DNA from: Ancylobacter vacuolatus
GTDB taxonomy: Bacteria; Pseudomonadota; Alphaproteobacteria; Rhizobiales; Xanthobacteraceae
DNA length: 64,000 nt
NCBI RefSeq assembly: GCF_030813595.1
Contig: NZ_JAUSUH010000007.1
Span: forward strand, 62,001-126,000
Direction: 5' to 3'
The notes under the pieces are model-generated. The model was not told where the DNA came from. It was given only the letters and a program-made list of their open reading frames with translations, and ran no database searches. The stretch's first letter is position 1. Each line of letters starts with the position of its first letter. Below are positions 5,965-32,431 of the stretch, one piece after another. The position numbers were made by a program, and so were the translations under genes.

Positions 5965-6429
5965 TCAATTCAGAAGCTTTGCCCTTGCACTGCGCGGCGT
6001 CGCCAGCAGAAGGCTCGTTTCGCTGTTGTTCACGCCGGGGATCAGGCGGATCCGGCGCAGAGCGGCATCAAGATCGGCCAAGGTCGCGGTGCCCAATTCA
6101 ACGATGAGGTCCCAGCGACCGCTGGTCGTGTGGATCGCGGAAATTTCCGGCAGGCCTCCGAGGGCGTGGATCACCCGGTCGGTCACGCGCCCTTCAATCC
6201 CTATCATCGTGATGCCGCGGACGGGTTGGTCGACGGCATCCGCACGCAGTACGACCGTGTAGCCAACGATCTGGCCGCCGCGCTCCAGTCGCTCGAGGCG
6301 AACGCGTACCGTCGCGCGGGAAACGCCGAGATCCGCGGCAAGATCGGAAATGCTCCGCCGGCCATCGTGGCGAAGCAGAGTGATCAGTCTCTCGTCCAAT
6401 TCGTCCACCAGGCTATCCAATATGGTCAA
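5965..6429 (-). CDS. Lrp/AsnC-family transcriptional regulator
   Basis: About 154 residues from a TTG at 6429 (MTILDSLVDELDERL); the frame stays open further upstream but the family length favours this start. The N-terminal helix-turn-helix reads DGRRSISDLAADLGVSRATV. The C-terminal half is the Lrp ligand-binding/oligomerisation (RAM) fold, ending in the typical GVNNSETSLLLATP. It is divergent from arginase and ornithine cyclodeaminase, so it probably controls them in response to arginine or ornithine, as AsnC-type regulators of arginine catabolism do. Confidence in the family is high, in the exact start low. Confidence 0.85.
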   Translation of the reverse strand: MTILDSLVDELDERLITLLRHDGRRSISDLAADLGVSRATVRVRLERLERGGQIVGYTVVLRADAVDQPVRGITMIGIEGRVTDRVIHALGGLPEISAIHTTSGRWDLIVELGTATLADLDAALRRIRLIPGVNNSETSLLLATPRSARAKLLN

Positions 6430-6536: not shown

Positions 6537-7454
6537 ATGCACTGCAGGATAGTCGGGGCACCTGTTGAGGATGGCGCTGGGCGCAAGGGGTGCGAGATGG
6601 GGCCGAGCGCGTTACGTGTCGCAGGTCTGGTCGAGGCGTTGCGCGAGCTCGGGCACAGCGTCGATGATCTCGGGACGCTGGCGTCGACGCCAACGCCTGC
6701 CTTTCATCCAAATCCTCGCCTGAAATCCCTGTCGGAGATTGCCGGATGGACGGCGACGATTGCCGAGGCTGCTTATCGCGCGAGCGACGACGCCCTCCCG
6801 TTTTTCCTCGGCGGCGACCACAGCATTTCGGCGGGCACGCTTGCCGGCATGGCGCGTCGGGCGGCAGAATGCCGGCGGCCGCTATTCGTGCTGTGGCTGG
6901 ATGCGCATACCGACTTCCATACGCTCGACAGTTCGATGAGCGGCAATCTCCATGGTGTGCCACTCGCCTACGCGACCGGGCAGCCGGGGTTCGAGGGCCA
7001 TTTCCCGCCGCTTGACGATCGGGTTGAGCCGACCCGCGTCTGCACATTCGGGGTCCGCAGCATCGATCCGGCAGAGCGGACGGCGATAGATAAGGCCGGC
7101 GTGACCATGCACGACATGCGCGCCATAGACGAGCATGGGATCGGCCCGCTGCTGCGCGAGTTTCTCGGGCGTGTTGGCTTGGAGGACGGTTTGCTGCACG
7201 TCAGCCTCGACGTAGACTTCCTCGATCCCTCCATCGCTCCCGCCGTCGGCACCACCGTTCCCGGCGGCGCCACCTTCCGCGAAGCGCATTTGGTCATGGA
7301 GATGCTGCATGACAGCGGACGTGTCTCTAGCCTCGATCTCGTCGAGCTCAATCCCTTTCTCGACGAACGTGGGCGTACGGCGACCCTGATGGTCGACCTC
7401 GTCGCGAGCCTAATGGGTCGCCGGATCATGGACCGGCCCACGCGGAGCTATTGA
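6537..7454 (+). CDS. rocF: Arginase
   Basis: 305 residues; hydrolyses arginine to ornithine and urea using a Mn2 centre. The ureohydrolase metal motifs are all visible: GGDHS (92-96), DAHTDFH (122-128) and SLDVDFLDP (about 222-230), with the closing helix SSLDLVELNP. Length matches bacterial arginases (about 300). The ATG follows a G-rich SD (GGGGGGATCGA). Ornithine cyclodeaminase starts 1 nt after the stop, so the pair converts arginine to proline via ornithine. The divergent Lrp/AsnC gene is the likely regulator. Agmatinase is a less likely alternative because of the neighbour. Confidence 0.92.
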   Translation: MHCRIVGAPVEDGAGRKGCEMGPSALRVAGLVEALRELGHSVDDLGTLASTPTPAFHPNPRLKSLSEIAGWTATIAEAAYRASDDALPFFLGGDHSISAGTLAGMARRAAECRRPLFVLWLDAHTDFHTLDSSMSGNLHGVPLAYATGQPGFEGHFPPLDDRVEPTRVCTFGVRSIDPAERTAIDKAGVTMHDMRAIDEHGIGPLLREFLGRVGLEDGLLHVSLDVDFLDPSIAPAVGTTVPGGATFREAHLVMEMLHDSGRVSSLDLVELNPFLDERGRTATLMVDLVASLMGRRIMDRPTRSY

Positions 7455-20174: not shown

Positions 20175-20568
20175 CGCCATTTCGTTGATTTCCCGGCGAG
20201 ACGCGATGGAGTGGATGCCCGTCCAGGCGGCATCGAGTGTGCCAGAGTGGAGGAGTCCTGGATCATTGCAGCCATTTTGGAGCGCAGATGAGACAGAAGG
20301 GGCAGCACCTCGCAATTGCAGAAGATCGTAGCTTTTCGACCCTCCGGCACCACTCCCGATCCAAGGCACATCACTTCAAGCCGTAAGCCTCCAGCGACGC
20401 AAGCCGACCTATAAAGAACTGTATGCCTGCAGCTCCGCCCACTTTTTCAATGGAATCCGCCAAACGCGGTCGTTTGGGCTCCGCCCGGTAGCGGGTCCCA
20501 TCGGCAAGTCTAGAAATCATATAAACTATTGAATTTGCATTACTTTTGACTCCACGCTAAGGCGAGGC
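20175..20568. other. Intergenic region before the ECF sigma gene
   Basis: About 390 bp without a supported gene. The last 60 bp before the sigma gene are markedly AT-rich (ATCATATAAACTATTGAAT) and probably contain its promoter. I could not identify a clear Fur or Irr box. Confidence 0.4.
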
Positions 20569-21099
20569 ATGGGATCTGCCTCGACCTCATCGGATGATCT
20601 GGATGGCCTGTTCCGGGAGTATCACCGGGAGTTGGCGACGTTCGCCTATCGTAAGCTGCACGATCGGGAAGCGGCGTCCGATCTCGTGCAGGACGCGTTT
20701 GTACGGTATATCGCGCATGTGCAGCGGGCGGACACGGTGGCCGAGACGCCCCGCTTCTTTCTCTGGCGGATTGCCAGCAACCTCATTCTCGACTTCGGGC
20801 GTCGCCAGCGTCGGCGGGGACAGCTGGTTGCCCTGGAGGCGGTATCGCCGCATGAGCTCGCCGACAGCGCGCCGTCCGCCGAACGGCATCTCTCGGCGCG
20901 CCAGGAGTATCGGGCACTGCGCGAGGCACTTGACGAACTGCCCGCCAAGCCGCGAACCGCGCTGCTTCTGAACCGGGTCGAGCGTCTCACCCATGCGCAG
21001 ATCGCTCTCCGGCTCGGTGTCTCGCCGAGCATGGTCAACAAGTACATTTCGCGGGCGCTGGGCCATTGCATCGCGCGGCTCGGCGAAGCCGGTTTCTAG
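20569..21099 (+). CDS. fecI: ECF sigma factor, FecI type
   Basis: 176 residues. Region 2 (LFREYHRELATFAYRKL, then ASDLVQDAFVRY) and region 4 (LDELPAKPRTALLLNRVE, then THAQIALRLGVSPSMVNKYI) match iron-starvation-type ECF sigma factors. It is followed by a FecR-like gene and a TonB-dependent receptor with a signalling domain, the classic cell-surface signalling trio. Ligand binding at the outer membrane would be passed through FecR to free this sigma factor for transcription of the receptor gene. Confidence 0.92.
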   Translation: MGSASTSSDDLDGLFREYHRELATFAYRKLHDREAASDLVQDAFVRYIAHVQRADTVAETPRFFLWRIASNLILDFGRRQRRRGQLVALEAVSPHELADSAPSAERHLSARQEYRALREALDELPAKPRTALLLNRVERLTHAQIALRLGVSPSMVNKYISRALGHCIARLGEAGF

Positions 21100-21164
21100 A
21101 AAAGCACCGGCCGCACTGTCATGCCGAAACCCTCGCACGTCTTCATTGGCATGGATGGCGACCT

Positions 21165-22100
21165 ATGACGCGCCGGGCACAAGCGCCCCTCAAGAACGAC
21201 CCGCTGACGGAGCGGGCACTTTCCTGGCTGGTTCACCTGCATTCAGGTGGCGAGACGGCGCAGGACTGGCAGGACTACCATGACTGGAAGATGGCGCATC
21301 CCAGCCATGCCGAGGCTGCCGCACGGGCCGAACATGTGTGGAGCCGACTCGGGCCGGCCTTGAAGCCCCCGCGCCGAACGGCGCGACGGGCGGCCGGGGC
21401 GCTTGCTGTCTGCCTTGTCCTCGCCGGCGCGGGCGCCTTTGCCATTGGCTCGTTCCCCGGCTGGTTCGCGGACCAGGCCACGGGACTGGGTGAAATCCGC
21501 ACCGTGGCGCTCGACGATGGCTCGTCGGTGGTGATGGATTCGGACACGCGTTTCGACGTCGATTTCACCGCGCCGCAACGGCGTATCCGGCTGCTCGACG
21601 GCCAGATCTTCGTTACCGTGGCCGCCGATCCCGCCCGCCCCTTCATCGTCGAAGCCGGGGAGGGAGAGATTCAGGCGCTCGGCACGGCCTTCAACATACG
21701 CCAGGACGGCACGCAGACGGCGGTCAGCGTCACCGAGCACGCCGTTCGCGTGTCACTGAAACCGGCGGAACCGGTCGACGTCACCCAAGGGCACGGCGTC
21801 GACTACGCCCCCGCGACCGGGCTCGGGCCCCCGCATATCGTCGATATCGAGAACGTGACGGCGTGGCGCCGGGGCGAGATCCTGTTCGACGGGCGGCCGC
21901 TCGGCGCCGTCGCCGCAGAGATGGGACGCTACAGACGGGGCGCGATCTTCTTCACGGACGAACGACTGAAGCAGCTTCCTGTCACCGGGATGTTCTCGAC
22001 CCGCGATGTCGATGATTTTTTCGGCGCGCTTGAACAGACGCTTCCGGTGCGTGTCTTGCGGCTTCCCTATCTCACCTTGATCCTCCCGAGGACTGACTGA
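21165..22100 (+). CDS. fecR: FecR-family anti-sigma/sigma regulator
   Basis: 311 residues from the ATG at 21165; the frame is open back to 21066 but the FecR N-terminus (RALSWLVHLHSGGET) begins here. It has a cytoplasmic DUF4880-like start, one transmembrane helix at about 76-96, and the periplasmic FecR domain with DGSSVVMDSDTRFDVDF and TAFNIRQDGTQTAVSVTEH. It is predicted to relay the signal from the STN domain of the next gene's product to the sigma factor upstream. Its start lies 65 nt after the sigma gene. Confidence 0.9.
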   Translation: MTRRAQAPLKNDPLTERALSWLVHLHSGGETAQDWQDYHDWKMAHPSHAEAAARAEHVWSRLGPALKPPRRTARRAAGALAVCLVLAGAGAFAIGSFPGWFADQATGLGEIRTVALDDGSSVVMDSDTRFDVDFTAPQRRIRLLDGQIFVTVAADPARPFIVEAGEGEIQALGTAFNIRQDGTQTAVSVTEHAVRVSLKPAEPVDVTQGHGVDYAPATGLGPPHIVDIENVTAWRRGEILFDGRPLGAVAAEMGRYRRGAIFFTDERLKQLPVTGMFSTRDVDDFFGALEQTLPVRVLRLPYLTLILPRTD

Positions 22101-22222
22101 GCGCCCCACCGCGAATTAGAAGAATTACGATCTTTTGCTTCGTGCTGTCAGGTTCAGCGCCAACCGCGTCTTCCCCATCGAGGCCCCACGAGGGGGCAAC
22201 GCACAAGGCAAGGGGAACCACG

Positions 22223-25200
22223 ATGCGGCGCGGCGACTGGGGCATTCTCGCACGGGCGCGGCTTGCGCTCCTTATCGGCTCGACGGCGCTGGCGACAGCG
22301 GGTTACGCCCCGCCCGCGCTCGCGGAGCAGCAGGTTTCCTACAACATACCGGCGGGAAGTCTCGGCGCGGCCCTGACCGCCTGGGCGCGCGCCTCGGGCA
22401 CGAGGTTCCTTGCCTCGTCGGAGGTCCTGAACGGGCGGCGCACATCGGGAGTTGCCGGCCTTTACGCGCCGCATCAGGCGCTTGACGCCCTGCTACAGGG
22501 AACCGAACTCACCTACAATATCAGTGGGTCGACCGTGACGATCAGCCGTCCCGGCCAAGGCATCGGCGTCGAGCCGGTCCCTGATGATGTCATCGCGCTC
22601 GATGTCGTCACGGTCTCCACAGGTGGCAATCCCGTCGAAAGGCCCTTCGAGACGCCGGCGCCCGTTGCCTATATCTCGCAGGAGACCATCGAGCGGTTTC
22701 GCGGCAGCAGCCCGGCCGATATCTTCCGCGGCACACCCGGCGTGATGTCGGGCGAGGCGCGCAACGGTGCCGGCGCGATCGACGTCAACATTCGCGGCAT
22801 GCAGGGTTTCGGGCGCGTCGCGACCACGATCGACGGCGCCGAGAACGGCGTGACGGTCTATCAGGGCTATCAGGGCGTCTCGAACCGGACCTATGTCGAC
22901 CCCGATCTTCTGGCCGGCATCGAGATCACCAAGGGATCGGACGCTTCCTCTCGTGGCATCGCCGGCACCGTGACGATGCGCACCCTCGACGCGGGCGACA
23001 TCGTCAAGCCGGGCGAGACCTGGGGCGTGCGCGTCAAGGGCGAGTTCGGCACCAACTCGGCCGAGCCCGAGGCCGGCGCGAAGGGCGGCTATCTCTGGCC
23101 AGGAAACCCCACTTCGCCTCCCGTTGCCGTGCCCTCCGCTGAAGGCATGGACCGGCCCGGCCTGTTCGACCCGCGCAGCGGCTCCGCCAGTTTCGCCGCC
23201 GGTGTGAAGGAGGAGAATTACGACCTCTTTGCCGCCTATGCCTACCGCAATCAGGGAAACTATTTCGCCGGCACGCACGGCTCCGGGGCAAGGCCGGTCA
23301 ATAGCGGACCGCGCGAACTGTGTTCGGGCTCCTGGTGCCAGGCGTGGCCCGACTATGTCGAGAACGCCGGCCTCACAAATTACCGTCCCGGCGAAGAAGT
23401 GCTGAACACGCAGCTGGAAACCGAAACCTGGATCGCCAAGTCGACGGTGCGGTTCGGCGACGGACACACCCTGCAGGCCGGTTATACCGGTTATCGCGCC
23501 GAGGCCGGCGACCTGCTCGCCTCCCGCTTCACCAGTGAACGTGGCCAGCCCGTGCAGCAGCAGCAGACGGCCGGCACGTCGGTCGACACCGGCACGCTAC
23601 GCTATCGCTGGGACCCGGAGGAGAACGATCTCATCGACCTCAAGTCCAACCTCTGGACCACGCGGCTCGAACTGCGCAATCCTCGCCGGGGCGCGACGAT
23701 ACCCACGCCGGAATCGCTGGGGCTGCCGGCCGGCTACCGCACCGGATCGGACACGGTGATGTGGGGCGCGGACGCGACGAACACTTCCGCGTTCGCCCTT
23801 GACCAATATGGATCGCTCGACCTCGTCACCGGCGTTTCCTACATCAGCGAGGATACGCGCCCGAGCGGCTATTCGCAGGCCCTTGATGGCTGGCTCAATT
23901 TGCGCGACGCCCAGCGCGAAGAGGCGGCGATCTTCAGCAAGGTCGCCTACCAGCCGCTCGACTGGCTGACCCTCAATGGCGGCCTGCGCTATTCGCATTA
24001 CTGGTCCGACGACCGGTCGATCAACGCCAACAGCTTCTACGTCAATCCGGAGCCGGAGCGGGACGAAGGCGGCTTCAGCCCCTCGGTCGGGGTGACGGTG
24101 GAACCGGTCGACGGCACGCAGTTCTATGTGAACTACTCGAACGCCCTGCGTTTCCCGAGCCTGTTCGAAGCGGGATCGGCCTTCACCATCATTCCCAATC
24201 CGGACCTGAAGCCGGAACGCTCCAGCAATTGGGAAGTCGGTGTGAACTATGTCAGCGACGGTCTGTTCGCGGCCAATGACCAGGCCATGTTGAAGTTCAG
24301 CTATTTCAACTGGGACGTGAAGGACTATGTGGTCCGGGAGTTCCGTCCCTTCCAAGGGGATGGCTATGAGTGGTACGGCATGCAGGTCTATAATATCGAC
24401 CGGGCCAGGTTCTCAGGCCTCGAATTCTCCGCCCGCTACGAGAATGCGGGATTTACCGCCGCCTTTGGCGCGAATTACTATCTCGATATCGAATATTGCC
24501 GTACGTCCTACAATTGCGACAGCAAAACGTTGTATGGCGACTACGCTACCAACCAGATTCCGCCTGAATACATGCTGAACCTCACCCTGTCGCAGAAATT
24601 CCTGGACGATGCGCTCACGGTGGGCGGCCAGGTGTCCTATATCGGCCCGCGCGCCATCGGCCACGGTCAGGTGACGGCGCAAGGCGCCGCTCAGTTCATC
24701 AGCCAGATCAACTGGGACCCCTATTTCCTTGTTGATGTTTACGCCGAGTACAAGATCAACGAGAACCTCAAGGCGAGCATTCGCGTCGAGAATCTGACGG
24801 ACGAATATTATGTCGATCCGCTAAGCCTGGTGAACCAGCCCGGTCCGGGACGCACCTTCTATGCAGGCCTGACCGGCACCTTCGGCGGCAACCAGCCGAT
24901 GCCCACGCTCATGCCGCCGCTCCGAGGCAGCGGGAACGGCGTGGATTGGACCGGACTTTATGCCGGCTTCCACGCGGGTGGGGTGCTCGCCCATGTGGAT
25001 GGCACAACGACGACGCTGAACGGCACGCAGAACGACATTGCCTCGACCGAATCCGCCAATCTCGGCCTGCGGGACAACTATCTCTGGGGCGTTCAGGGCG
25101 GCTTCAACTACCAGCTGGCGAACCGTTGGGTCTTCGGCATGGAAGCCGACTTCAGCAACACCTCTCTCACCGGCTCCCAGAAGGCCGTGGCGACGGAGGG

Positions 25201-25789
25201 TTCCCTTGCCGCCACCGGTGCGCTTCAGGCCGAGACGCATTACGCCATCGACCAGATGGCCAGCCTGCGCGGCCGTATCGGCTATGCCTTCGAGGACGGG
25301 CTGTTCCTGTACGCGACCGGCGGCGCCGCCTTCGCTCGGGAGAAGACGACCCGCGACCAATATGCTGCGGACGAAGCCTGGGGTTCGGATTCCTTCGGCA
25401 CCTCGACCAAGATGACCTCGATCGAGAGCGTGCGGATCGATCGTACCGGCTGGACGGTGGGCGGCGGCGCGGAGTTCGCCCTCAGCGACCGCTGGTCGGT
25501 GAAGGCCGATTACAGCTTTACCCGCCTGGCCTCCCAGACCGTCACCTTCGCGAACGCGCGCGCCGGGGTCGGGCAGAACTATACGACCCAGGCGCAGACC
25601 GGCACGACGATCGTGCCACCGAGCCCGCGTCTGTGCGAGCGACGCGGCGGCGAATTCTGCCTGCCGAGGGAAGTCCCCGTCTACACGACGACGTATCACC
25701 CCGGCAGTTCCACCATTACCAACGGACGCAGCGCCACGGACGAGATCGACCTGCACATGCTCAAGATCGGCTTGAACTACAAGTTTTGA
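22223..25789 (+). CDS. TonB-dependent transducer fused to a C-terminal Omp25-like beta-barrel
   Basis: 1188 residues from the ATG at 22223, chosen for its SD (AAGGGGAACCACG) and signal peptide (to about residue 34). In order: an STN signalling domain (about 35-90), a plug (about 125-265, with NIRGMQGFGRVATTIDGAE and GIEITKGSDASSRG), and a 22-strand-type barrel ending near GRTFYAGLTGTFGG at about 895. That would normally be the end of the protein. It then continues for about 280 residues with VDWTGLYAGFHAGG, FGMEADFSNT, YATGGAAFA and WSVKADYSFTRL, the pattern of an 8-strand Omp25/31-type porin ending in FKF-like LKIGLNYKF. The plug resembles heme/hemoglobin receptors. Regulation by the upstream FecI/FecR pair is expected. 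Confidence 0.88.
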   Translation: MRRGDWGILARARLALLIGSTALATAGYAPPALAEQQVSYNIPAGSLGAALTAWARASGTRFLASSEVLNGRRTSGVAGLYAPHQALDALLQGTELTYNISGSTVTISRPGQGIGVEPVPDDVIALDVVTVSTGGNPVERPFETPAPVAYISQETIERFRGSSPADIFRGTPGVMSGEARNGAGAIDVNIRGMQGFGRVATTIDGAENGVTVYQGYQGVSNRTYVDPDLLAGIEITKGSDASSRGIAGTVTMRTLDAGDIVKPGETWGVRVKGEFGTNSAEPEAGAKGGYLWPGNPTSPPVAVPSAEGMDRPGLFDPRSGSASFAAGVKEENYDLFAAYAYRNQGNYFAGTHGSGARPVNSGPRELCSGSWCQAWPDYVENAGLTNYRPGEEVLNTQLETETWIAKSTVRFGDGHTLQAGYTGYRAEAGDLLASRFTSERGQPVQQQQTAGTSVDTGTLRYRWDPEENDLIDLKSNLWTTRLELRNPRRGATIPTPESLGLPAGYRTGSDTVMWGADATNTSAFALDQYGSLDLVTGVSYISEDTRPSGYSQALDGWLNLRDAQREEAAIFSKVAYQPLDWLTLNGGLRYSHYWSDDRSINANSFYVNPEPERDEGGFSPSVGVTVEPVDGTQFYVNYSNALRFPSLFEAGSAFTIIPNPDLKPERSSNWEVGVNYVSDGLFAANDQAMLKFSYFNWDVKDYVVREFRPFQGDGYEWYGMQVYNIDRARFSGLEFSARYENAGFTAAFGANYYLDIEYCRTSYNCDSKTLYGDYATNQIPPEYMLNLTLSQKFLDDALTVGGQVSYIGPRAIGHGQVTAQGAAQFISQINWDPYFLVDVYAEYKINENLKASIRVENLTDEYYVDPLSLVNQPGPGRTFYAGLTGTFGGNQPMPTLMPPLRGSGNGVDWTGLYAGFHAGGVLAHVDGTTTTLNGTQNDIASTESANLGLRDNYLWGVQGGFNYQLANRWVFGMEADFSNTSLTGSQKAVATEGSLAATGALQAETHYAIDQMASLRGRIGYAFEDGLFLYATGGAAFAREKTTRDQYAADEAWGSDSFGTSTKMTSIESVRIDRTGWTVGGGAEFALSDRWSVKADYSFTRLASQTVTFANARAGVGQNYTTQAQTGTTIVPPSPRLCERRGGEFCLPREVPVYTTTYHPGSSTITNGRSATDEIDLHMLKIGLNYKF

Positions 25790-25814
25790 CATGAATGACC
25801 GACCTTGGTCGCGC

Positions 25815-26187: not shown

Positions 26188-26385
26188 TGAACCGCCCAGA
26201 TTTTTCTAGAGGCCCTCGGCTTTGGCCTTGTGCTGCCGTTCGAACTCGATGGGTGACAGCACCCCGTTCCGTGCGTGCTTCCGGGTGGAGTTATAGGGCA
26301 TCTCGATGTAATCGAACACGTCCCGGCGTGCCTCGTCGCGGGTGCGGTAGACCTTGCGGCGGATGCGTTCGCGCTTGAACGCGCC
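26188..26385 (-). mobile_element. IS3-family insertion sequence remnant (OrfB C-terminus and one end)
   Basis: On the minus strand the frame ending at the TAG at 26208-26206 reads KVYRTRDEARRDVFDYIE, then YNSTRKHARNGVLSPIEFE, the C-terminal signature of IS3-family OrfB integrases (usual: DYIERFYNPRRRHSTLGYLSPVEFE). Upstream homology stops near 26385, so the DDE core is lost. Just beyond the stop, TGAACCGCCCAGATTTTTCT from 26188 resembles an IS3-type terminal inverted repeat. The DUF6065 gene ends 10 bp from the break, so the element probably inserted or recombined there. Confidence 0.85.
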
Positions 26386-26394
26386 AGAGACGGC

Positions 26395-27474
26395 TCAGAG
26401 CACGCGCGCAATCGCGCCGCGAGCGAGAAGGTCTTCGGCGAGGCGCAGAATATCCGCTGCCAGCCTCTCACGCTCCACGTCGAATTCTTCGAGCAGGCAA
26501 TCGATGATGTGGCCCATGGAGCGGCTGCCGTCCATCCGCGCGACCGCAAGGCGCGCCGTCTCGTTCATTGAGGGCGCCCCATCGCCGGCCGTCACCGCCG
26601 GAGTGACCACGAACACCGATGTCTCGTCCACGCCGCTGCCGCCCCCCTGCGACGTGGCGCTCCCGCCCTCCACCCTTTGAACATAGCTCGCCGCCACCGG
26701 GCACAGATCGTCCAGGGGAGTCTCGCTCTGGGGCGCGTGGAGCCGACGCTTGATCCGGTGGTCGTCGGCGGCCCGGAGATGTCCGGTAGTAGACTGCCCC
26801 TTCAGGTAAAAGCGTTGCCACTTCTGGGCCTGCGCCTCCGGGTCGTGCTCCGCCAGCTTCCGGTTGAAGGCGAGACGGGAATCCCGCCAGCTGGTATATT
26901 CGCGTTCCAGCTTGGGATCCGACGCGAGGGCGCGCAGGCGCGGCGTGACGGATTCAAGCGCGACGCTGGGCCAGAGGCTGAAGAAGCAGAACGGTTCGCC
27001 CGCCTCGAAGCGTACGCTTCCCGGCTCGAGAAACCGCCAGTTCATGGTGAAGGTGAACGGCGCCCAGTTGGTCTCGACGATGCCGTCGAGCGGCACGATC
27101 CCTGCCTTCATGCGGTTGGGCGCTCCGCGGCACCAGATCACCCAGTCCGGATCGGTGCGGAACAGATAGCCGGCCTGGAAGGTGAGGATGCCGGAGCCGA
27201 AATGTGAGGAGGCGTAGGCCGGCACGCTGCCGTCGTCGGCGCGTACCGCGATAGCGTCCAGTCCGGGGCTGCCATTCCACGTCACGGTAAGGCCGACGGG
27301 GTTGATGATCTCCCACCCGGAGGCGTTGGCGATGGAAAGCGGAGTGCAGCGATAGGCGAAGCGATCCGGCGTCTGGTCCATCCACTCGCGCTCGGACGCT
27401 CCGGGCACGATCAGAGGCGGATCCTTGAACAGGGGATAGCAGTCCAGGCGGAGCGCAGCCATTTCCGCGTTCAC
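26395..27474 (-). CDS. DUF6065-PqqD-like fusion protein
   Basis: 359 residues from a GTG at 27474 (an in-frame ATG lies at 27462). The first 240 or so residues have the DUF6065 pattern as I recall it: RLDCYPLF, WMDQTPDRFAYRC, PLSIANASGWEI, VTWNG, FGSGILTFQ and a TNWAPFTFTMNW stretch. After a Gly/Ser linker (GGSATSQGGGSG, about residue 270) come about 80 residues with a PqqD/RRE-like helix pattern (MNETARLAVARMDGSRSM, then LLEEFDVERERLAADIL and LLARGAI). PqqD-like domains bind leader peptides of ribosomally made, modified peptides. It is divergent from the candidate precursor genes, 83 bp away. DUF6065 has no function that I know of. Confidence 0.7.
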   Translation of the reverse strand: MNAEMAALRLDCYPLFKDPPLIVPGASEREWMDQTPDRFAYRCTPLSIANASGWEIINPVGLTVTWNGSPGLDAIAVRADDGSVPAYASSHFGSGILTFQAGYLFRTDPDWVIWCRGAPNRMKAGIVPLDGIVETNWAPFTFTMNWRFLEPGSVRFEAGEPFCFFSLWPSVALESVTPRLRALASDPKLEREYTSWRDSRLAFNRKLAEHDPEAQAQKWQRFYLKGQSTTGHLRAADDHRIKRRLHAPQSETPLDDLCPVAASYVQRVEGGSATSQGGGSGVDETSVFVVTPAVTAGDGAPSMNETARLAVARMDGSRSMGHIIDCLLEEFDVERERLAADILRLAEDLLARGAIARVL

Positions 27475-27557
27475 AACTCAAGCCGCCCGCAGGGGGCCCG
27501 TGCGCGCCATAGGAAGATCAGTGTGTTCCCGGCGCCGATCACGCCGGAGACGAGCCC

Positions 27558-27953
27558 ATGACTGCCGAGACCACATTGCGCGCGGCGCGTAAGCCCATGC
27601 GCTCCGACGCTCATGGGGGCGGCGACGGTGGCGGCACCGGCGGCGGGATCGGGGTAGGAGGCGGCGGCGGCGGGATTGGCGTAGGCGGCGACGGCGGCAC
27701 AAACGGCACCCCGGACACCGGGACAACCGGCGCGGGAACCGACGCTGAGCTCAGCCGAACGGTCGGCGCGACCATTGGCGGCACGTATGGCTTCTTCATT
27801 CCAAACCCCATGTTCCGACATAAATCGCAACATTCATTCAGATGTCATTACTCTGGTAAGGTGTCAACGCTCTCCAAGGGAAAGCTGCGGGCAGCGATCT
27901 GCGGTGTGCCGGTGGCGCCGGCGCGGGCTCAGCAGCGCTATCGGTCTGTGTGA
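27558..27953 (+). CDS. Candidate precursor peptide, copy A (glycine-rich, 3' frameshifted)
   Basis: The ATG follows GGAGACGAG. The N-terminus MTAETTLRAARK is followed by about 25 residues of almost pure glycine (GGGDGGGTGGG, GIGVGG repeats), then the block shared with copy B: GGTNGTPDTGTTGA, DAELSRTVG and TIGGTYGFFIPNP (to about residue 84). After PNP the copies diverge: one C fewer in the C-run here removes the stop seen in copy B, so the frame runs on to 131 residues through what is leader-like DNA in the other copy. The ancestral product was probably about 88 residues. It looks like a secreted or modified peptide, but no known precursor family is recognised. Confidence 0.5.
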   Translation: MTAETTLRAARKPMRSDAHGGGDGGGTGGGIGVGGGGGGIGVGGDGGTNGTPDTGTTGAGTDAELSRTVGATIGGTYGFFIPNPMFRHKSQHSFRCHYSGKVSTLSKGKLRAAICGVPVAPARAQQRYRSV

Positions 27954-28104
27954 ACAACGCATTCGAGCCTGCGCCCGCCGACGGGTGCGGCGGCGGGCCC
28001 GCATTCGCTTGCAAACGTCACACACCAGTGGCGCGCGGCGCCGCGCGCGCCATACCAGGACGATGGCATCTCCAGCGCCTATCGGGCCGGAGACGAGCAC
28101 GTGA

Positions 28105-28290
28105 TTGCGGAAACGACCAAGCGCGGCGCGGAAGCGCACGCGCTCCGACGCTCAGGACGGCGGCACAAACGGCACCCCGGACACCGGGACAACCGGCGCG
28201 GCAGCCGACGCGGAGCTCAGCCGAACAGTCGGCGTGACCATTGGCGGCACGTATGGCTTCTTCATTCCCAACCCCCATGTTCCGAGTTAA
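28105..28290 (+). CDS. Candidate precursor peptide, copy B
   Basis: 61 residues if started at the TTG at 28105, about 11 nt after GGAGA. The GTG at 28101 aligns with the ATG of copy A, but a 2-nt shortening puts it out of frame. It shares GGTNGTPDTGTTGA, DAELSRTVG and TIGGTYGFFIPNP with copy A, then ends HVPS. Six substitutions separate the shared block of the copies; three are third-position silent in this frame (GCT/GCG, ACG/ACA, CCA/CCC), against one of six on the reverse strand, which favours this strand as coding. It directly precedes the PqqD-B2-kinase operon. Its role as RiPP precursor is inference. Confidence 0.5.
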   Translation: MRKRPSAARKRTRSDAQDGGTNGTPDTGTTGAAADAELSRTVGVTIGGTYGFFIPNPHVPS

Positions 28291-28566
28291 ATCGCAACAT
28301 TCATCCAGATGTCATTACTCTGGTAAGGTGTCAACGCTCTCCAGAGGAAGCTGCGGCCAGCGAAGAATCGGTGTCCCGGTGTGGCAGCGCGGACACGGCC
28401 GTTCTTTCCGCCTGTGCGACAAGAAGATGCCGGCCTGCGCCCGCCGGCGGGTGCGGCGGCGCGCGCGCATTCGCTTGCCAACGCCACGCACCGTCTGGCG
28501 CGCGGGAGCCGAGCGTGGCATGGGAGAGAGCAAATCGTGTCGCCACACGCAGGCAGGGAGGACGAA

Positions 28567-28851
28567 TTGAGGTCGGACTATGTGCTCCGGGTTTCCCCGC
28601 TCGCCAGCTTCCAGCCGCTCGGCGACAGCGCCGTGGTTCTGCGCATCGACAGTGGCCAGCTTTACTCGGCGAATGCCACGGCGCAGGCGCTGCTCTCCGC
28701 CATGGATGGGGAGCGCACGCTGGCGGACATCACCTCTCTCCTCCTCGAAGACTTCCATGTGGAGCGCGATGTCCTGGAGCGGGACCTGTTCGCCATGACC
28801 GAACAGCTTCTGGCAGCAGGCATCGTGGAAATAACCCCCGCCGCGTCATGA
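28567..28851 (+). CDS. PqqD-family peptide chaperone (RiPP recognition element)
   Basis: 94 residues from a TTG 5 nt after GGGAGG (28567); the frame is open upstream but family length and SD decide. Pattern: YVLRVSPLASFQPLG, VLRIDSGQLYSANATAQA, MDGERTLADITSLLLEDF, then DLFAMTEQLLAAGIV, the three-strand plus three-helix PqqD fold. Such proteins hold the leader of a precursor peptide for a modifying enzyme. With an HprK-related kinase next door it resembles what RefSeq calls the HPr-rel-A system PqqD protein (recalled, not checked). Its stop overlaps the next start as ATGA. Confidence 0.82.
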   Translation: MRSDYVLRVSPLASFQPLGDSAVVLRIDSGQLYSANATAQALLSAMDGERTLADITSLLLEDFHVERDVLERDLFAMTEQLLAAGIVEITPAAS

Positions 28852-29258
28852 CAGGCGCGGCGCTGCGTCGACGGCTGTGGTGGGAGGCGCGTCTTCTGCC
28901 GCTTCGGATCCTGGGGCGCGACTTTGCCGGCCTGCTGCGCTTTGCGGACCGCCCGCTCCGCAACGTTGATGCGCGGGGCCTGTCGGCGACGGATATCGTC
29001 GCCGCCGTGGTCGTGGCGACGCGCCGCCCCTGGATGATGCGGAACCGGCGCTGTCTGCGGCAGGGACTTCTGGCCTTCCGCGCCCTCCACAGTGCCGGTC
29101 ACCGGCCCGCGCTGCATTTCGGCGTCGACGCGGCGGGCCTCAAGGGCCGAGAAGGCCTAGTGCATTGCTGGATTCTGGTGAAGGGCGAGGTGGTCCTCAA
29201 CCCTCCCGAGCCGGGAATGACGACCGTGTTCATTCATTCCTTGTCGGACGCCGACTGA
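28848..29258 (+). CDS. Lasso peptide biosynthesis B2-type cysteine protease
   Basis: 136 residues. Transglutaminase-like B2 fold: the nucleophile in NRRCLRQGLLAFRAL (C69), PALHFGVD, then the catalytic histidine in VHCWILVKGEVVLNPP (H106). In lasso clusters B2 removes the leader peptide with help from the B1/PqqD domain. The aspartate usual a few residues after the His (HxWxxxDG) appears as lysine here (HCWILVKG), so the triad may be completed differently. It overlaps pqqD (ATGA) and the kinase gene (TGATG). No asparagine-synthetase-like cyclase accompanies it in the window. Confidence 0.82.
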   Translation: MTGAALRRRLWWEARLLPLRILGRDFAGLLRFADRPLRNVDARGLSATDIVAAVVVATRRPWMMRNRRCLRQGLLAFRALHSAGHRPALHFGVDAAGLKGREGLVHCWILVKGEVVLNPPEPGMTTVFIHSLSDAD

Positions 29259-30241
29259 TGCACAGGCTCTGCTTTGCCCTTGGCGGGGATAGCTGGGTGG
29301 TGGAATGCTCCCATGCCTCCCTGCTGCCGCCCTTGCGCGCCCTTCTCAACGGTCTCGAACGCGACACCGCCGGGCCCTCGCCGCAGCCATGGCGCCTTGA
29401 ACGGGGCCGGCCGGACCTCACCGGGATGGAAGGCCGTGTGCTGCACGAGGGGCAGATGGAATCCGGCCCGCGTTTCAGCCTGTTTCAGACCGCGGATGCG
29501 CTCGTCCTGCTGTGCGGGCGCGAGCTGCGCATCGAGGCCGATCGCATGGGCGGCACCGGACGGGCGATTGTCGCCCCCGGCAGCGAGACCCTGCTGACGG
29601 GCCAGGCCGGCGTCTTCATGGTGTCGGCCGCGCTGGACAGCATGGGACAGCAGCTCGTCCATGCCGCCGCTCTTGCGCGGCCCGGCGGGGCCGGAGCCAT
29701 TCTGCTGGCGGCGCCGAGCGGGGCGGGCAAGACCACGACGTCGCTTGCTCTCGCCCAGCAGGGGTTCGGCCTGATGTCCGACGATGGCGCGGTGCTGTGT
29801 CCGGGCGCCGGGCGCGTGGCCGTCTGGGGTCTCCCCCGCCGCCCCAAGGTGCACCGGGCGACGGCCGCTCTGCTTCCGGCGCTCGCCGCCGGGCTTCTCG
29901 GGGACTGGGACGTTGCCGGGGAGCAGCCGCTGGATCCCGCGCGCATCAGCGGTCTCAGGATAGCCCCGCCCGGCCTCGTTCTTCCGCTGGAAGCGCTCGT
30001 CTGGCTGGGCGCGCGGCGGGCCGGCACCACGCGCTGCGTGCCAATGGGCCGCGACGTCTTTCTCGCCGGTTTCGCGGTCGACAATCTCAATCGAGGGGTG
30101 GCGGGCGTGCCGGAGCACCAGCTGCGGCGATTCGAGGCCATCAGCCGGGCGGTTGGGCACGCGCCGACCTATGAGCTGCAGATTGGCGACCAACTCGCCG
30201 ACGCGGGCGAAGCCCTTATGAGGGGGGTAGATCAGGCATGA
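29258..30241 (+). CDS. HprK-related kinase A
   Basis: 327 residues. The C-terminal half resembles the HPr kinase/phosphorylase fold: P-loop APSGAGKTT (152-160) and GLMSDDGAVL (171-180, in the position of the HprK acidic motif), with the WGLPRRPKVHRAT segment after it. The N-terminal half is not recognised. HprK-like kinases in RiPP clusters can phosphorylate a precursor peptide, as in paeninodin; whether this one does so is inference. It shares one base with the B2 stop and its own stop overlaps the next start (ATGA), so the four genes form a tightly coupled operon. Confidence 0.82.
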   Translation: MHRLCFALGGDSWVVECSHASLLPPLRALLNGLERDTAGPSPQPWRLERGRPDLTGMEGRVLHEGQMESGPRFSLFQTADALVLLCGRELRIEADRMGGTGRAIVAPGSETLLTGQAGVFMVSAALDSMGQQLVHAAALARPGGAGAILLAAPSGAGKTTTSLALAQQGFGLMSDDGAVLCPGAGRVAVWGLPRRPKVHRATAALLPALAAGLLGDWDVAGEQPLDPARISGLRIAPPGLVLPLEALVWLGARRAGTTRCVPMGRDVFLAGFAVDNLNRGVAGVPEHQLRRFEAISRAVGHAPTYELQIGDQLADAGEALMRGVDQA

Positions 30242-31269
30242 GCCGCGCCCTGCTGTCACCCGCCTACGCCCACCGGCTGATCGCACTCGCCGATCCCGTG
30301 GGCAGCGGGCCGGATCTCTCAAGCCTTCCCGCGGCTGCGGTGCCGGAACTGCTGGCGGCGGCGCGGCAGCATCTCGTCCTGCCGGTCGTGTGGCGCCGCC
30401 TTGAGGTCCTGCGGGGGCGGGAGACGGCCGTCGCGCTTGACGAGGCGCACCGGGAACTGGAGCTTCAGACGGCGCACAGCATGCTGCTCGCCTACCATGC
30501 CTCGCGCATCGAGGCGGGCCTATCGCAAGCACGGGTGCGATTCTCCATCGTTAAAGGCGCCGCTTTCGCCTCGCTCTACCCGCACGCCTCGGACCGCCCC
30601 TTCACGGACATCGATATTCTGATCGATCCGTCGGACAGGCCGGCGGTAAATGCCACGCTGGAAGCGATGGACTTCGCCCCCGTTCCACGCAAGACCATCG
30701 ACCATTCGGCCGCCTATGGCGAATTCAAATGGACCGCGCGCCAGGCACCGAACGTGCTGGTCGAGGTTCACCTGAACCTGGTGCATTACCCGCTCCTGCG
30801 CCGGACCGTTTCCCTCTCTCTGGACGATCTCGCCGCTTTCGGCGGCGCGCAGGCACCGGCCGGCCGGCTCATGGTGGCCGTGGCCCACGCGGCGGCCGGC
30901 CACAAATTTCATGCGCTTCGCCTGATCGTGGACGTTCTGCAGGCGTCACGGGCGATGGGCCGGGAAGCCTCGCACGCCTTTGTGCAGACGGCGGCAAGAC
31001 AGGGCTGGGCGCTGGAGGCCGGCTTTGCGCTGGATCTTGCCGGGCGTCTTTATGGCGACGCGCAGACTACGGCAATCGCCACCCTGCTGCCGCCTTCCAG
31101 CGCCCGCGCGGTTGCGGCCCGCCTCCTGTCCGAGTCCGCCATCCTCGACGCCCCCCTGCACGGTGTCGCCTCCCGCATTCGCCGGACACTGGTTCGCGGG
31201 CTTCAGCATCTGCGGCCGGCGCTCCGGCGGCAAGGCGGTGGACCCGGGGCACGACCGGCTTCAGGATGA
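30238..31269 (+). CDS. Nucleotidyltransferase-family protein
   Basis: 343 residues. The polymerase-beta-like motif FTDIDILID (122-130, with D124 and D126) follows IVKGAAF (104-110), the usual arrangement of the putative nucleotidyltransferase family found beside lasso-type and HprK-related clusters. A helical C-terminal half follows. It could transfer a nucleotide to a peptide or to a carrier; no substrate can be read. It is the last gene of the operon, overlapping the kinase by 4 nt. The final residues (RRQGGGPGARPASG) are low-complexity and may not be structured. Confidence 0.8.
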   Translation: MSRALLSPAYAHRLIALADPVGSGPDLSSLPAAAVPELLAAARQHLVLPVVWRRLEVLRGRETAVALDEAHRELELQTAHSMLLAYHASRIEAGLSQARVRFSIVKGAAFASLYPHASDRPFTDIDILIDPSDRPAVNATLEAMDFAPVPRKTIDHSAAYGEFKWTARQAPNVLVEVHLNLVHYPLLRRTVSLSLDDLAAFGGAQAPAGRLMVAVAHAAAGHKFHALRLIVDVLQASRAMGREASHAFVQTAARQGWALEAGFALDLAGRLYGDAQTTAIATLLPPSSARAVAARLLSESAILDAPLHGVASRIRRTLVRGLQHLRPALRRQGGGPGARPASG

Positions 31270-31481
31270 CGGCGTGCGCCGCTGGGTATCTGCAAGTTGT
31301 GACCTGCCTATACGATTAGGCGCCTGCACCCGGCGTCGGCACGCTGAGCACTTCCTATGATGGTCGCGACGAACAGCGTCGGCCATAACCTTCAGCATGA
31401 GCAGGAGCGGCTGCAGCGCGGCCAGACACGCGGCATCACGCCGAGCATGTAGCCGCGACGGAGGATCGAGAGAGGACCGAC

Positions 31482-32192
31482 GTGATCGAGCCGTCATACA
31501 ACATCGCCCCGTCCCTCATGGCACCGGAAAAGTTGACGGATCTCGCCGAGGTCGAGATTGCGCGTCGGGCGCAAGAAGCGCCCCGCGCTCAAGCTGCACG
31601 GGTTGCGGCAGAGGGCTTGAGCGAGATTGCGTATCGGAACCGGATGGCAATACAGGCGACGCTCGACACCATCGCGGCGGCCGACAATTCTGCCGACACG
31701 GCGCGAGCGCTCGCCAGGCCCATCGAGAACGCGCCTGAAGCCCTCGGGCGCCTGCCGGGCCGCGCCGCCACCTTCTGGCGCAAGGAGGATGACGAGCGGC
31801 GCGAAGCCAGGGGCGCCGTCGTCGACCTTGCGCTCGCCGTCAAGAAATATGGCGATGCCCTCGCCTATGAGAGGTCAGAAATCCAGCACGCTCACCGCGA
31901 CGAACAAATACGGCTCGCGACCGCGATTCCAGCGCCCTCGCGGGAGTTGGCGGCTGTGCTCACCCAGCCGGTCGGCAAGGCGATCGAGGCTTTGCAGCAT
32001 GATCGAACGCTCGCTGACGAGCTGGTGAGGATCGTGGAGGCCGGTCGCCGGCGCCTCAGCGCGGACGATCTACGCGAGCCCGGGCACGTGCCCGATACCT
32101 ACCGTCATGCGGCCATGCTGCGCGATATGCACCAACAGCATGCGCGCCGGCAGACGCGGGGCCGAGAGGCAGGGCCAGTTATCACACGGTAG
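31482..32192 (+). CDS. BID-domain-like protein, probable relaxase (TraA) C-terminal remnant
   Basis: 236 residues from a GTG. The central part (ARPIENAPEALGRLPGR, then FWRKEDDERREARGAV, then VKKYGDALAYERSEIQ) matches the BID domain pattern I know from the C-terminus of alphaproteobacterial TraA relaxases, where it is a type IV secretion signal. No relaxase or helicase domain precedes it, so this is either a stand-alone secreted protein or the surviving tail of a relaxase. The broken topoisomerase III tail just downstream supports decay of a conjugative element. Confidence 0.65.
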   Translation: MIEPSYNIAPSLMAPEKLTDLAEVEIARRAQEAPRAQAARVAAEGLSEIAYRNRMAIQATLDTIAAADNSADTARALARPIENAPEALGRLPGRAATFWRKEDDERREARGAVVDLALAVKKYGDALAYERSEIQHAHRDEQIRLATAIPAPSRELAAVLTQPVGKAIEALQHDRTLADELVRIVEAGRRRLSADDLREPGHVPDTYRHAAMLRDMHQQHARRQTRGREAGPVITR

Positions 32193-32195
32193 GGC

Positions 32196-32431
32196 AGCAA
32201 TTCGCTTGGCCCTCTTCCTCACAAACTTCGCGATCCACTCGCGCTGCTTCGGCGAAGCGAGATCCTTTCCGCCGGCCGACCGCGCCGCGTCGATCCATTT
32301 CGACAGAACGTATCGAGCTGCGCCGCTTCAGGCGGGTCCGTCCGTGTCTCCTCCGACATCTTTCGGCCATAGGCGAAGTGCTTGTCCGAGGGGCCAGCGT
32401 TCGCGCGCTTGCGAGCCCGGCCGCACGTCAC
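32196..32431 (-). pseudogene. DNA topoisomerase III C-terminal remnant, frameshifted
   Basis: On the minus strand, frame one reads NAGPSDKHFAYGRKMSEET and on to AAQLDTFC. Near 32305 the homology moves to another frame, SKWIDAARSAGGKDLASPK then QREWIAKFV. Together these are the tail repeats typical of plasmid/ICE topoisomerase III (SDKHFAYGKKMAEETG, then KWID, then PSPKQLEWI). No catalytic part remains. It lies between the BID-domain gene and the LacI gene. Confidence 0.7.

Follow-up and report, generated by a model that had tools for sequence, protein, structure and literature searches.

What would be made by a gene cluster that carries the leader-binding protein and the leader peptidase of lasso peptides, together with a kinase and a nucleotidyltransferase, but no cyclase to close a ring? 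The question is raised by a block at positions 26395-31269 of a 64,000-nucleotide stretch of the Ancylobacter vacuolatus genome (contig NZ_JAUSUH010000007.1, positions 62,001 to 126,000 of the forward strand; hereafter the window). An earlier reading of the letters alone (the original prediction) had described an overlapping four-gene operon, a DUF6065-PqqD fusion and two tandem precursor genes, without a cyclase. Domain profiles and open reading frames confirmed that description: all of the parts named are present, and all frames are open. We think it likely that the cluster makes a linear ribosomally synthesized and post-translationally modified peptide (RiPP) that is cleaved by the B2-type peptidase, (poly)phosphorylated on serine and perhaps hexosylated, and carries no ring. 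Such a product would parallel, in Proteobacteria, the linear polyphosphorylated peptides (LPPs) of Bacillota, with B2 in place of an SpI-like signal peptidase.

The block and its precursor genes

The operon lies on the plus strand. Its first gene (28567..28851, TTG start) encodes a PqqD-type RiPP recognition element (RRE) of 94 residues that resembles B1 of lasso clusters (PF05402, 4.2e-13). It is followed by a B2-type leader peptidase (28848..29258; NF033537, 46.1 bits against a cut-off of 33; PF13471, 1.6e-10), an HprK-like peptide kinase (29258..30241; assigned from Pfam and NCBIfam profiles, an alignment of 14 rows and trees), and an NTP_transf_5 protein that is PsmN/LppN-like by annotation and position (30238..31269; PF14907, 3.8e-26). 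The start codons of these last three genes each lie within the preceding gene. The minus strand carries the two precursor genes and a fusion protein of 359 residues (26395..27474, GTG start), which joins DUF6065 (PF19541, 2e-93) to a C-terminal PqqD-like RRE (PF05402, 1.7e-9). Pfam and NCBIfam profiles found no macrolactam cyclase (the asparagine-synthetase-like C protein) in the block.

Precursor A1 (28152..28265, minus strand; MKKPYVPPMVTPTVRLSSASAAAPVVPVSGVPFVPPS) has 37 residues, with the leader motif YVPPMV, a Ser at position -2, and a core that contains PVSG and no Asp or Glu. Precursor A2 (27611..27799, minus strand; 62 residues) has approximately the same 37 residues and a Pro-rich tail. 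Because neither core contains Asp or Glu, no lasso isopeptide bond is possible, and the acidic residue at core position 7-9 by which lasso precursors are recognized is missing from both. The two genes lie in a tandem duplication of about 466 bp, in which blocks of 120 nt and 82 nt are 95% and 93% identical. Duplicated together with the genes is a conserved block upstream of A1 (28268..28349, minus strand), a putative promoter that contains TTGACA; its second copy, a direct repeat before A2 (27801-27882, minus strand), is 93% identical. A consensus scan of this upstream block found no sigma-70-like site.

The same block is present in A. polymorphus DSM 2457 (genome G022, locus L040), where the upstream block is kept and the precursor genes number three, with a poly-Pro tail again on the copy closest to the fusion gene. 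DNA similarity between the two genomes spans 26402-31229 and ends on both sides (about 40 kb of G022 compared, with one 109-bp match further off). The ratio of nonsynonymous to synonymous substitution (dN/dS) for the precursors was 0.11-0.20 in six comparisons over 36 codons, values that indicate purifying selection on these peptides. Because the block is conserved amid unlike flanks and its precursors are under such selection, we regard it as more than a chance assembly.

A wider cyclase-free set in the order

The window cluster is one branch of a wider cyclase-free set in its order. In a sample of 397 genomes of the order, the kinase search matched 20: the window's genome, G022 and 18 others. 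PqqD, B2, the kinase and NTP_transf_5 occur together in 15 of the 18 other loci (L081-L095), and B2 was not seen in the remaining three (L096, L097 and L242). Within Ancylobacter the kinase is present in 6 of 30 genomes. Two of these have the DUF6065 fusion; the other four (L189-L192) have the same four enzymes as the window operon, with no fusion in the 18 kb examined. No match to the cyclase profile occurs in any of L081-L095 or L189-L192 (10.9-20 kb examined), although the left end of L082 abuts a separate lasso cluster (L098). Together with the window and L040, these loci make up 21 cyclase-free loci. A class-wide search was positive in one of 385 genomes, the window's own, which is a weak negative with six candidates scored per genome.

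Approached from the peptidase, the order sample contains 33 lasso-type B2 places in 26 of the 397 genomes. Thirty of these were scanned for 1.5 kb on each side, and three (G000, G022 and G265:C45:84264, the last with a PF00733 match 0.7 kb away) were judged from other scans. At 17 of the 33 places (L081-L095, G022 and the window) PqqD, B2 and HprK stand without C within 1.5 kb. Twelve lie beside C, 11 of them within that distance and the twelfth (L214; wider stretch L241) with a C match starting 1.5 kb away. The other four comprise L193 and L194, where no partner gene was found, L196 at a contig end, and L198.

In a midpoint-rooted kinase tree with several long branches, all 21 cyclase-free kinases fell on one side of a branch with support of 96/96 (95/95 in an earlier tree), and five kinases beside C, together with that of L198, fell on one side of another (94/92). 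Among the B2 proteins, 15 cyclase-free B2s match one profile at 1.2e-54 or better, whereas B2s beside C match at 5.5e-9 to 4e-3 or not at all, a gap that is partly built in by construction of the profile from cyclase-free B2s.

The original prediction had proposed searching this neighborhood in other genomes for conserved small ORFs. We ran that search, and clear small peptides are encoded in 15 of the 21 loci (window, L040, L081, L087-L094 and L189-L192), as located by leader motif, by profile or by reading of the sequence. The 52 precursors that we tabulated (the peptide of L086 is excluded, and that of L095 has no start codon) share a Y..P leader and T, V or S at the fifteenth residue after the leader Tyr, and most have Ser-Gly or Ser-Ser in the core. 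That fifteenth residue, position -2, is T in 38, V in 9 and S in 5; the leader Tyr is replaced by Cys in one precursor, and position -1 is A in 48. Thr at -2 is a known recognition feature of lasso leaders, with Ile or Val in some kinase-type clusters, according to the available text of PMC10368454. The motif S[GS] falls within the first 14 core residues of 46 of the 52 (mean 10.1 and maximum 22 in 2000 shuffles), a count that is inflated by near-copies, with 18 from G971/G974, and affected by a precursor profile whose 13 seeds ended in SG or SS; on a per-genome count, the motif is found in one or more precursors of 14 of the 17 genomes. The core lacks Asp and Glu in 39 of the 52. Seven of the 52 were compared with NCBIfam and Pfam, and none scored above a cut-off; there were weak leader-side matches to lasso_cyano, rhodolasso and DUF5972.

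Precursor number varies within the set. L191 (3939-5232 and 10567-10683) has at least 8 precursor genes and L192 (3977-5468 and 10791-10922) at least 10, with varied leaders and cores that begin almost invariably with GANFSGKK (one has GTNFSGKK). At L086 in genome G354 (6857-7252, minus strand), a stretch resembling a Y..P leader, KPYHKPTLTKGSVLSDVTAA, is joined to a Peptidase_S74 domain (endosialidase chaperone; PF13884, 2.2e-8); from its sequence this is possibly a precursor with a chaperone-type tail.

Active sites and a proposed pathway

A profile of the window's PqqD family matches the solved RREs TfuB1 (1.3e-9) and TbiB1 (5.4e-7). B2 keeps Cys69 and His106 (alignment of 12 rows), the catalytic pair of its family. 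The NTP_transf_5 protein keeps Lys106, Asp124 and Asp126 (alignment of 10 rows). The kinase keeps His135, Gly157-Lys158 and Asp175-Asp176 (alignment of 14 rows), and a His-Lys-Asp-Asp set is named for lasso kinases in the available text of PMC9266682. In comparison with A. polymorphus, dN/dS for PqqD, B2, the kinase and the NTP_transf_5 gene was 0.21-0.27.

Because these active sites are kept, and with the precedents of BsfK, LppK and PsmN (discussed below), we propose an order of RRE binding, Ser (poly)phosphorylation, possible hexosylation and B2 cleavage, with no ring formed. The discrete PqqD/RRE would bind the leader at YVPPMV and present the core to the kinase, which would add one or perhaps several phosphates to the conserved serine in Ser-Gly. 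By analogy with PsmN, the NTP_transf_5 protein may then add a sugar or nucleotide to the phosphate. B2 would cut after residue 21, one past the Ser that occupies the lasso Thr(-2) position, as predicted from the spacing to the leader Tyr. The product released would be a linear core of 16 residues (41 with the Pro tail), without a macrolactam. The conserved Ser-Gly site, the short precursors and the small gene set make the action of the kinase and the NTP_transf_5 protein on the peptide directly testable in E. coli.

Flanking genes and the possibility of decay

Immediately beyond the fusion gene, the block is bordered on the left by the 3' remnant of an IS3 transposase (26188..26378, minus strand), 86-92% identical to copies in other Ancylobacter, one of which is annotated as an IS3 family transposase. 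At this place A. polymorphus has an MsbA-like ABC exporter, with ABC_membrane and ABC_tran domains, whose frame comes after the fusion gene and has the same orientation (L040 4199-6178, first ATG/GTG start at 5995). The right edge carries the tail of a TraA-type relaxase with a BID domain (31365..32202, plus strand; NF033856, 46.1 bits against a cut-off of 45), which is 79.7% identical to the traA/BID region of an A. pratisalsi plasmid. From 32310 on, the right flank is 96% identical in G186, a genome without such a kinase. Because of the two mobile remnants, the exporter in A. polymorphus and the flank shared with a kinase-free genome, it is probable that the block was acquired as cargo, and its exporter may have been lost. 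A search for HprK on plasmids gave no match.

These flanks might also be read as signs that the cluster is decaying and silent, left on a mobile remnant and making no product at all. The IS3 remnant and relaxase tail, the missing exporter with the IS3 remnant in its place, and the restriction of this form of the block (type I) to two of the 30 Ancylobacter genomes would all accord with decay. The open frames, the catalytic residues kept and the dN/dS values of the four operon genes speak against it, and we judge decay improbable.

Other neighboring genes were considered as parts of the system. A TonB receptor/FecR unit (20448-25804) was rejected, as it is 82-89% identical in the kinase-free genomes G976, G966 and G967 and has no match in G022; its TonB-dependent receptor (22142-25789, 1215 residues) has an STN domain and an extra C-terminal outer-membrane beta-barrel domain. 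An exporter conserved across the set was likewise rejected: a BLAST comparison of neighbors joined ABC proteins in 5 of 10 groups, but scans showed mixed ABC types. One MsbA-like exporter adjoins L040 and another is close to the array of precursors at L192, the two sharing 46% identity over 304 residues; a third belongs to the separate lasso cluster of G330. A conserved AMP-ligase neighbor, joined by BLAST in 7 of 10 groups, was rejected when family scans gave different enzymes (propionate-CoA ligase, acyl-ACP phospholipid acyltransferase). Near cyclase-free clusters of three genera there is an AMP-ligase and GNAT pair (L088 7031-9023, L090 4680-6712, L191 5470-7466 and L192 5617-7688), with the GNAT match by scan in the first three and by BLAST only in L192. 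The pair is possibly an optional tailoring module and is absent from the window.

Cyclases elsewhere in the carrier genomes

The block could also be a lasso cluster that has lost its cyclase, or that uses one encoded elsewhere in trans. The window's B2 and PqqD are of lasso type, and the block has the B1 (RRE) and B2 pair by which lasso clusters are recognized. We give this explanation a slim chance. In-trans cyclization would find no ring acceptor in either window core. A PF00733 search of 17 carrier genomes gave matches of 290 positions or more in 11, but in six (G354, G469, G326, G566, G433 and G577) all matches cover at most 155 of 354 positions, leaving these genomes without a full-length asparagine-synthase-like protein. 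A cyclase always paired elsewhere, which the original prediction had named as grounds for abandoning its idea, is thus not what the genomes contain. Its second such ground, a widespread operon with no conserved small peptide ORF close by, is not borne out either, as 15 of the 21 loci encode clear small peptides. The separate grouping of the cyclase-free kinases and the match of the cyclase-free B2s to their own profile (the latter partly by construction) point the same way, and so does the presence of both systems in G330 and G400, where each of the two is equipped with a PqqD, B2 and HprK of its own.

Several observations nevertheless weigh against a ringless product of a dedicated system. 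Outside the block, the window's genome encodes four long PF00733 proteins, and PqqD genes adjoin three of these (on contigs C1, C2 and C17). Two of these three loci show no B2, and the B2 match at the third, L037, is broken into two frames; because no intact B2 is seen there, the window's B2 could also serve these loci. The cyclase-free block of G330 has a lasso cluster only 8-9 kb away. In G519, the L198 locus (wider stretch L240, 10187-11124) has PqqD, B2 and HprK with no C match in 19.9 kb and a kinase in the lasso branch. The placement of that kinase means that a missing C is not enough to assign a locus to the group; in G519 the cyclase may have been lost a second time, independently. Precursors are weak or odd at three of the 21 cyclase-free loci (L085, L086 and L095) and none is visible at three others (L082-L084), and 5 of the 52 tabulated have Asp or Glu at core positions 7-9. 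The biases in the S[GS] count were given above. The window block has no MsbA-like exporter, and the three distant ABC ATPase matches lie far away. Finally, that the Ser-Gly serine accepts the phosphate is inferred from how well it is conserved and from the precedent of the kinases PadeK, SyanK, BsfK and LppK.

The own-genome loci with PqqD and an asparagine-synthase-like protein are L035 (C2), L036 (C1) and L037 (C17). At L036 a kinase and a sulfotransferase (PF00685, 2.7e-28) are encoded, and no B2 was found. On contig C3 (L223, 7081-7719) the genome also encodes a B2-type transglutaminase-like protein (PF13471, 1.1e-20), with no PqqD, kinase, NTP_transf_5 or cyclase match in 15 kb.

In our view a linear, ringless phosphopeptide remains the best account of the window cluster. 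The core of the original prediction, a peptide bound by PqqD, cut by B2 and modified by the kinase without ring formation, is strengthened by the conserved precursors, the catalytic residues, the 17 of 33 B2 places without a nearby cyclase and the 6 of 17 genomes without a full-length one; its label of HPr-rel-A is taken up below.

The DUF6065-RRE fusion

The fusion of A. polymorphus (G022/L103) is 78% identical to that of the window, and the fusion is seen in these two Ancylobacter genomes only. Stand-alone DUF6065 proteins, mostly from Caulobacterales, Hyphomonadaceae and Hyphomicrobiales, share the domain at 38-57% identity, but 79 of 80 DUF6065 loci have no PqqD, B2, HprK, NTP_transf_5 or C match in the 3.7-19.5 kb examined; one of the 80 adjoins RiPP genes. 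Our literature search found no paper on DUF6065. The RRE fusion points to a function for this domain, and the protein may be a second peptide-directed tailoring or trimming enzyme. The AlphaFold2 model for the fusion entry has a mean per-residue confidence (pLDDT) of 80, and the predicted DUF6065 fold may weakly resemble dUTPase. One could imagine a linear Pro-rich Ser-polyphosphopeptide or sugar-phosphate peptide on which the fusion acts as a peptide-directed phosphoanhydride hydrolase of dUTPase-like fold, trimming or resolving polyphosphate or nucleotide-diphosphate on the core Ser. We hold this specific scheme to be unlikely. If true, phosphate on a ribosomal peptide would pass through a write-extend-edit pathway, built up by the kinase and the NTP_transf_5 protein and edited by the fusion.

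Comparison with known systems

The original prediction had linked the operon to HPr-rel-A, a label that our scores do not bear out: the kinase reaches 36.2 bits against a TIGR04352 (HprK_rel_A) cut-off of 200, and the PqqD protein 16.8 against a TIGR04353 (PqqD_rel_X) cut-off of 35. A literature search found no paper on HPr-rel-A. The domain types are the same (PqqD, HprK-like kinase, NTP_transf_5), and a member of that system acting on an HPr-like or wider substrate, not a small peptide, might be imagined. In addition to the low scores, the window block differs by its B2 and its tandem Y..P precursors, and an HPr-rel-A-like locus (L039) is found elsewhere in the same genome (PqqD_rel_X, 37.4 against 35; kinase 61.6, below 200). 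We consider this explanation very unlikely.

Phosphorylated lasso peptides are among the closest known systems. In the available text of their reports, bsf of Bradymonas (PMC10368454) and paeninodin, pseudomycoidin and SyanA (PMC9266682) share with the window cluster a PqqD-type B1, B2, an HprK-like kinase, a Ser acceptor and Thr or Ile/Val at -2, and bsf and psm share the nucleotidyltransferase as well. BsfK phosphorylates Ser3 with the help of the RRE (PMC10368454), and PsmN is needed for the hexoses on phospho-Ser (PMC9266682). These clusters, as described there, have the C cyclase and a ring-forming Asp or Glu, whereas the window cluster has neither.

Also close is the LPP system, known from the lpp cluster of Paenibacillus alginolyticus (Popov et al., May 2026; PMC13381572) and, by the authors' account in the text available, restricted to Bacillota. 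There, LppK adds several phosphates to Ser3 of a linear peptide, the unphosphorylated precursor is poorly cleaved, and LppN was inactive in its test host (PMC13381572). As far as that text describes them, LPP clusters resemble the window's in a discrete RRE, an HprK-like kinase, an NTP transferase, no macrolactam cyclase, a Y..P leader and several precursors, and in that some genomes have a distinct lasso cluster close by (here G330 and G400). They differ in several ways. LPP clusters have an SpI-like signal peptidase, whereas the window block has B2 and no SpI-like protein by Pfam and NCBIfam. The LPP leader is YxxPxVLxHQxIxFETxxS, of which the YxxPxV part alone is matched by the window leader, YVPPMVTPTVRLSSAS, the HQxIxFET part being absent. 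LPP clusters have an MsbA-like exporter, which the window lacks and A. polymorphus has. The window system occurs in Hyphomicrobiales and includes the DUF6065-RRE fusion. That a true Bacillota-type LPP cluster was transferred into Proteobacteria, as the shared logic of RRE, HprK and NTP transferase without a cyclase (PMC13381572) and the exporter adjoining the A. polymorphus block might suggest, is highly improbable given the B2 peptidase and the leader without HQxIxFET, on a comparison with the published description of LPPs.

Because LPPs of Bacillota have already been published (PMC13381572, in its available text), the claim of an undescribed system was too strong for the principle. A kinase-dependent RiPP without a cyclase is known from Bacillota; in a literature search that covered mostly titles and abstract openings, we met no description of the B2-type proteobacterial family, its Ser-Gly precursors or the DUF6065-RRE fusion. 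The distinction has practical weight, as proteins called lasso_biosyn_B2 are easily read as lasso markers, yet in the order sample more of their places lie in cyclase-free kinase blocks (17 of 33) than beside a cyclase (12 of 33). If our reading is correct, ringless phospho-RiPPs span both Bacillota, with SpI, and Proteobacteria, with B2, having been reached by way of different proteases.

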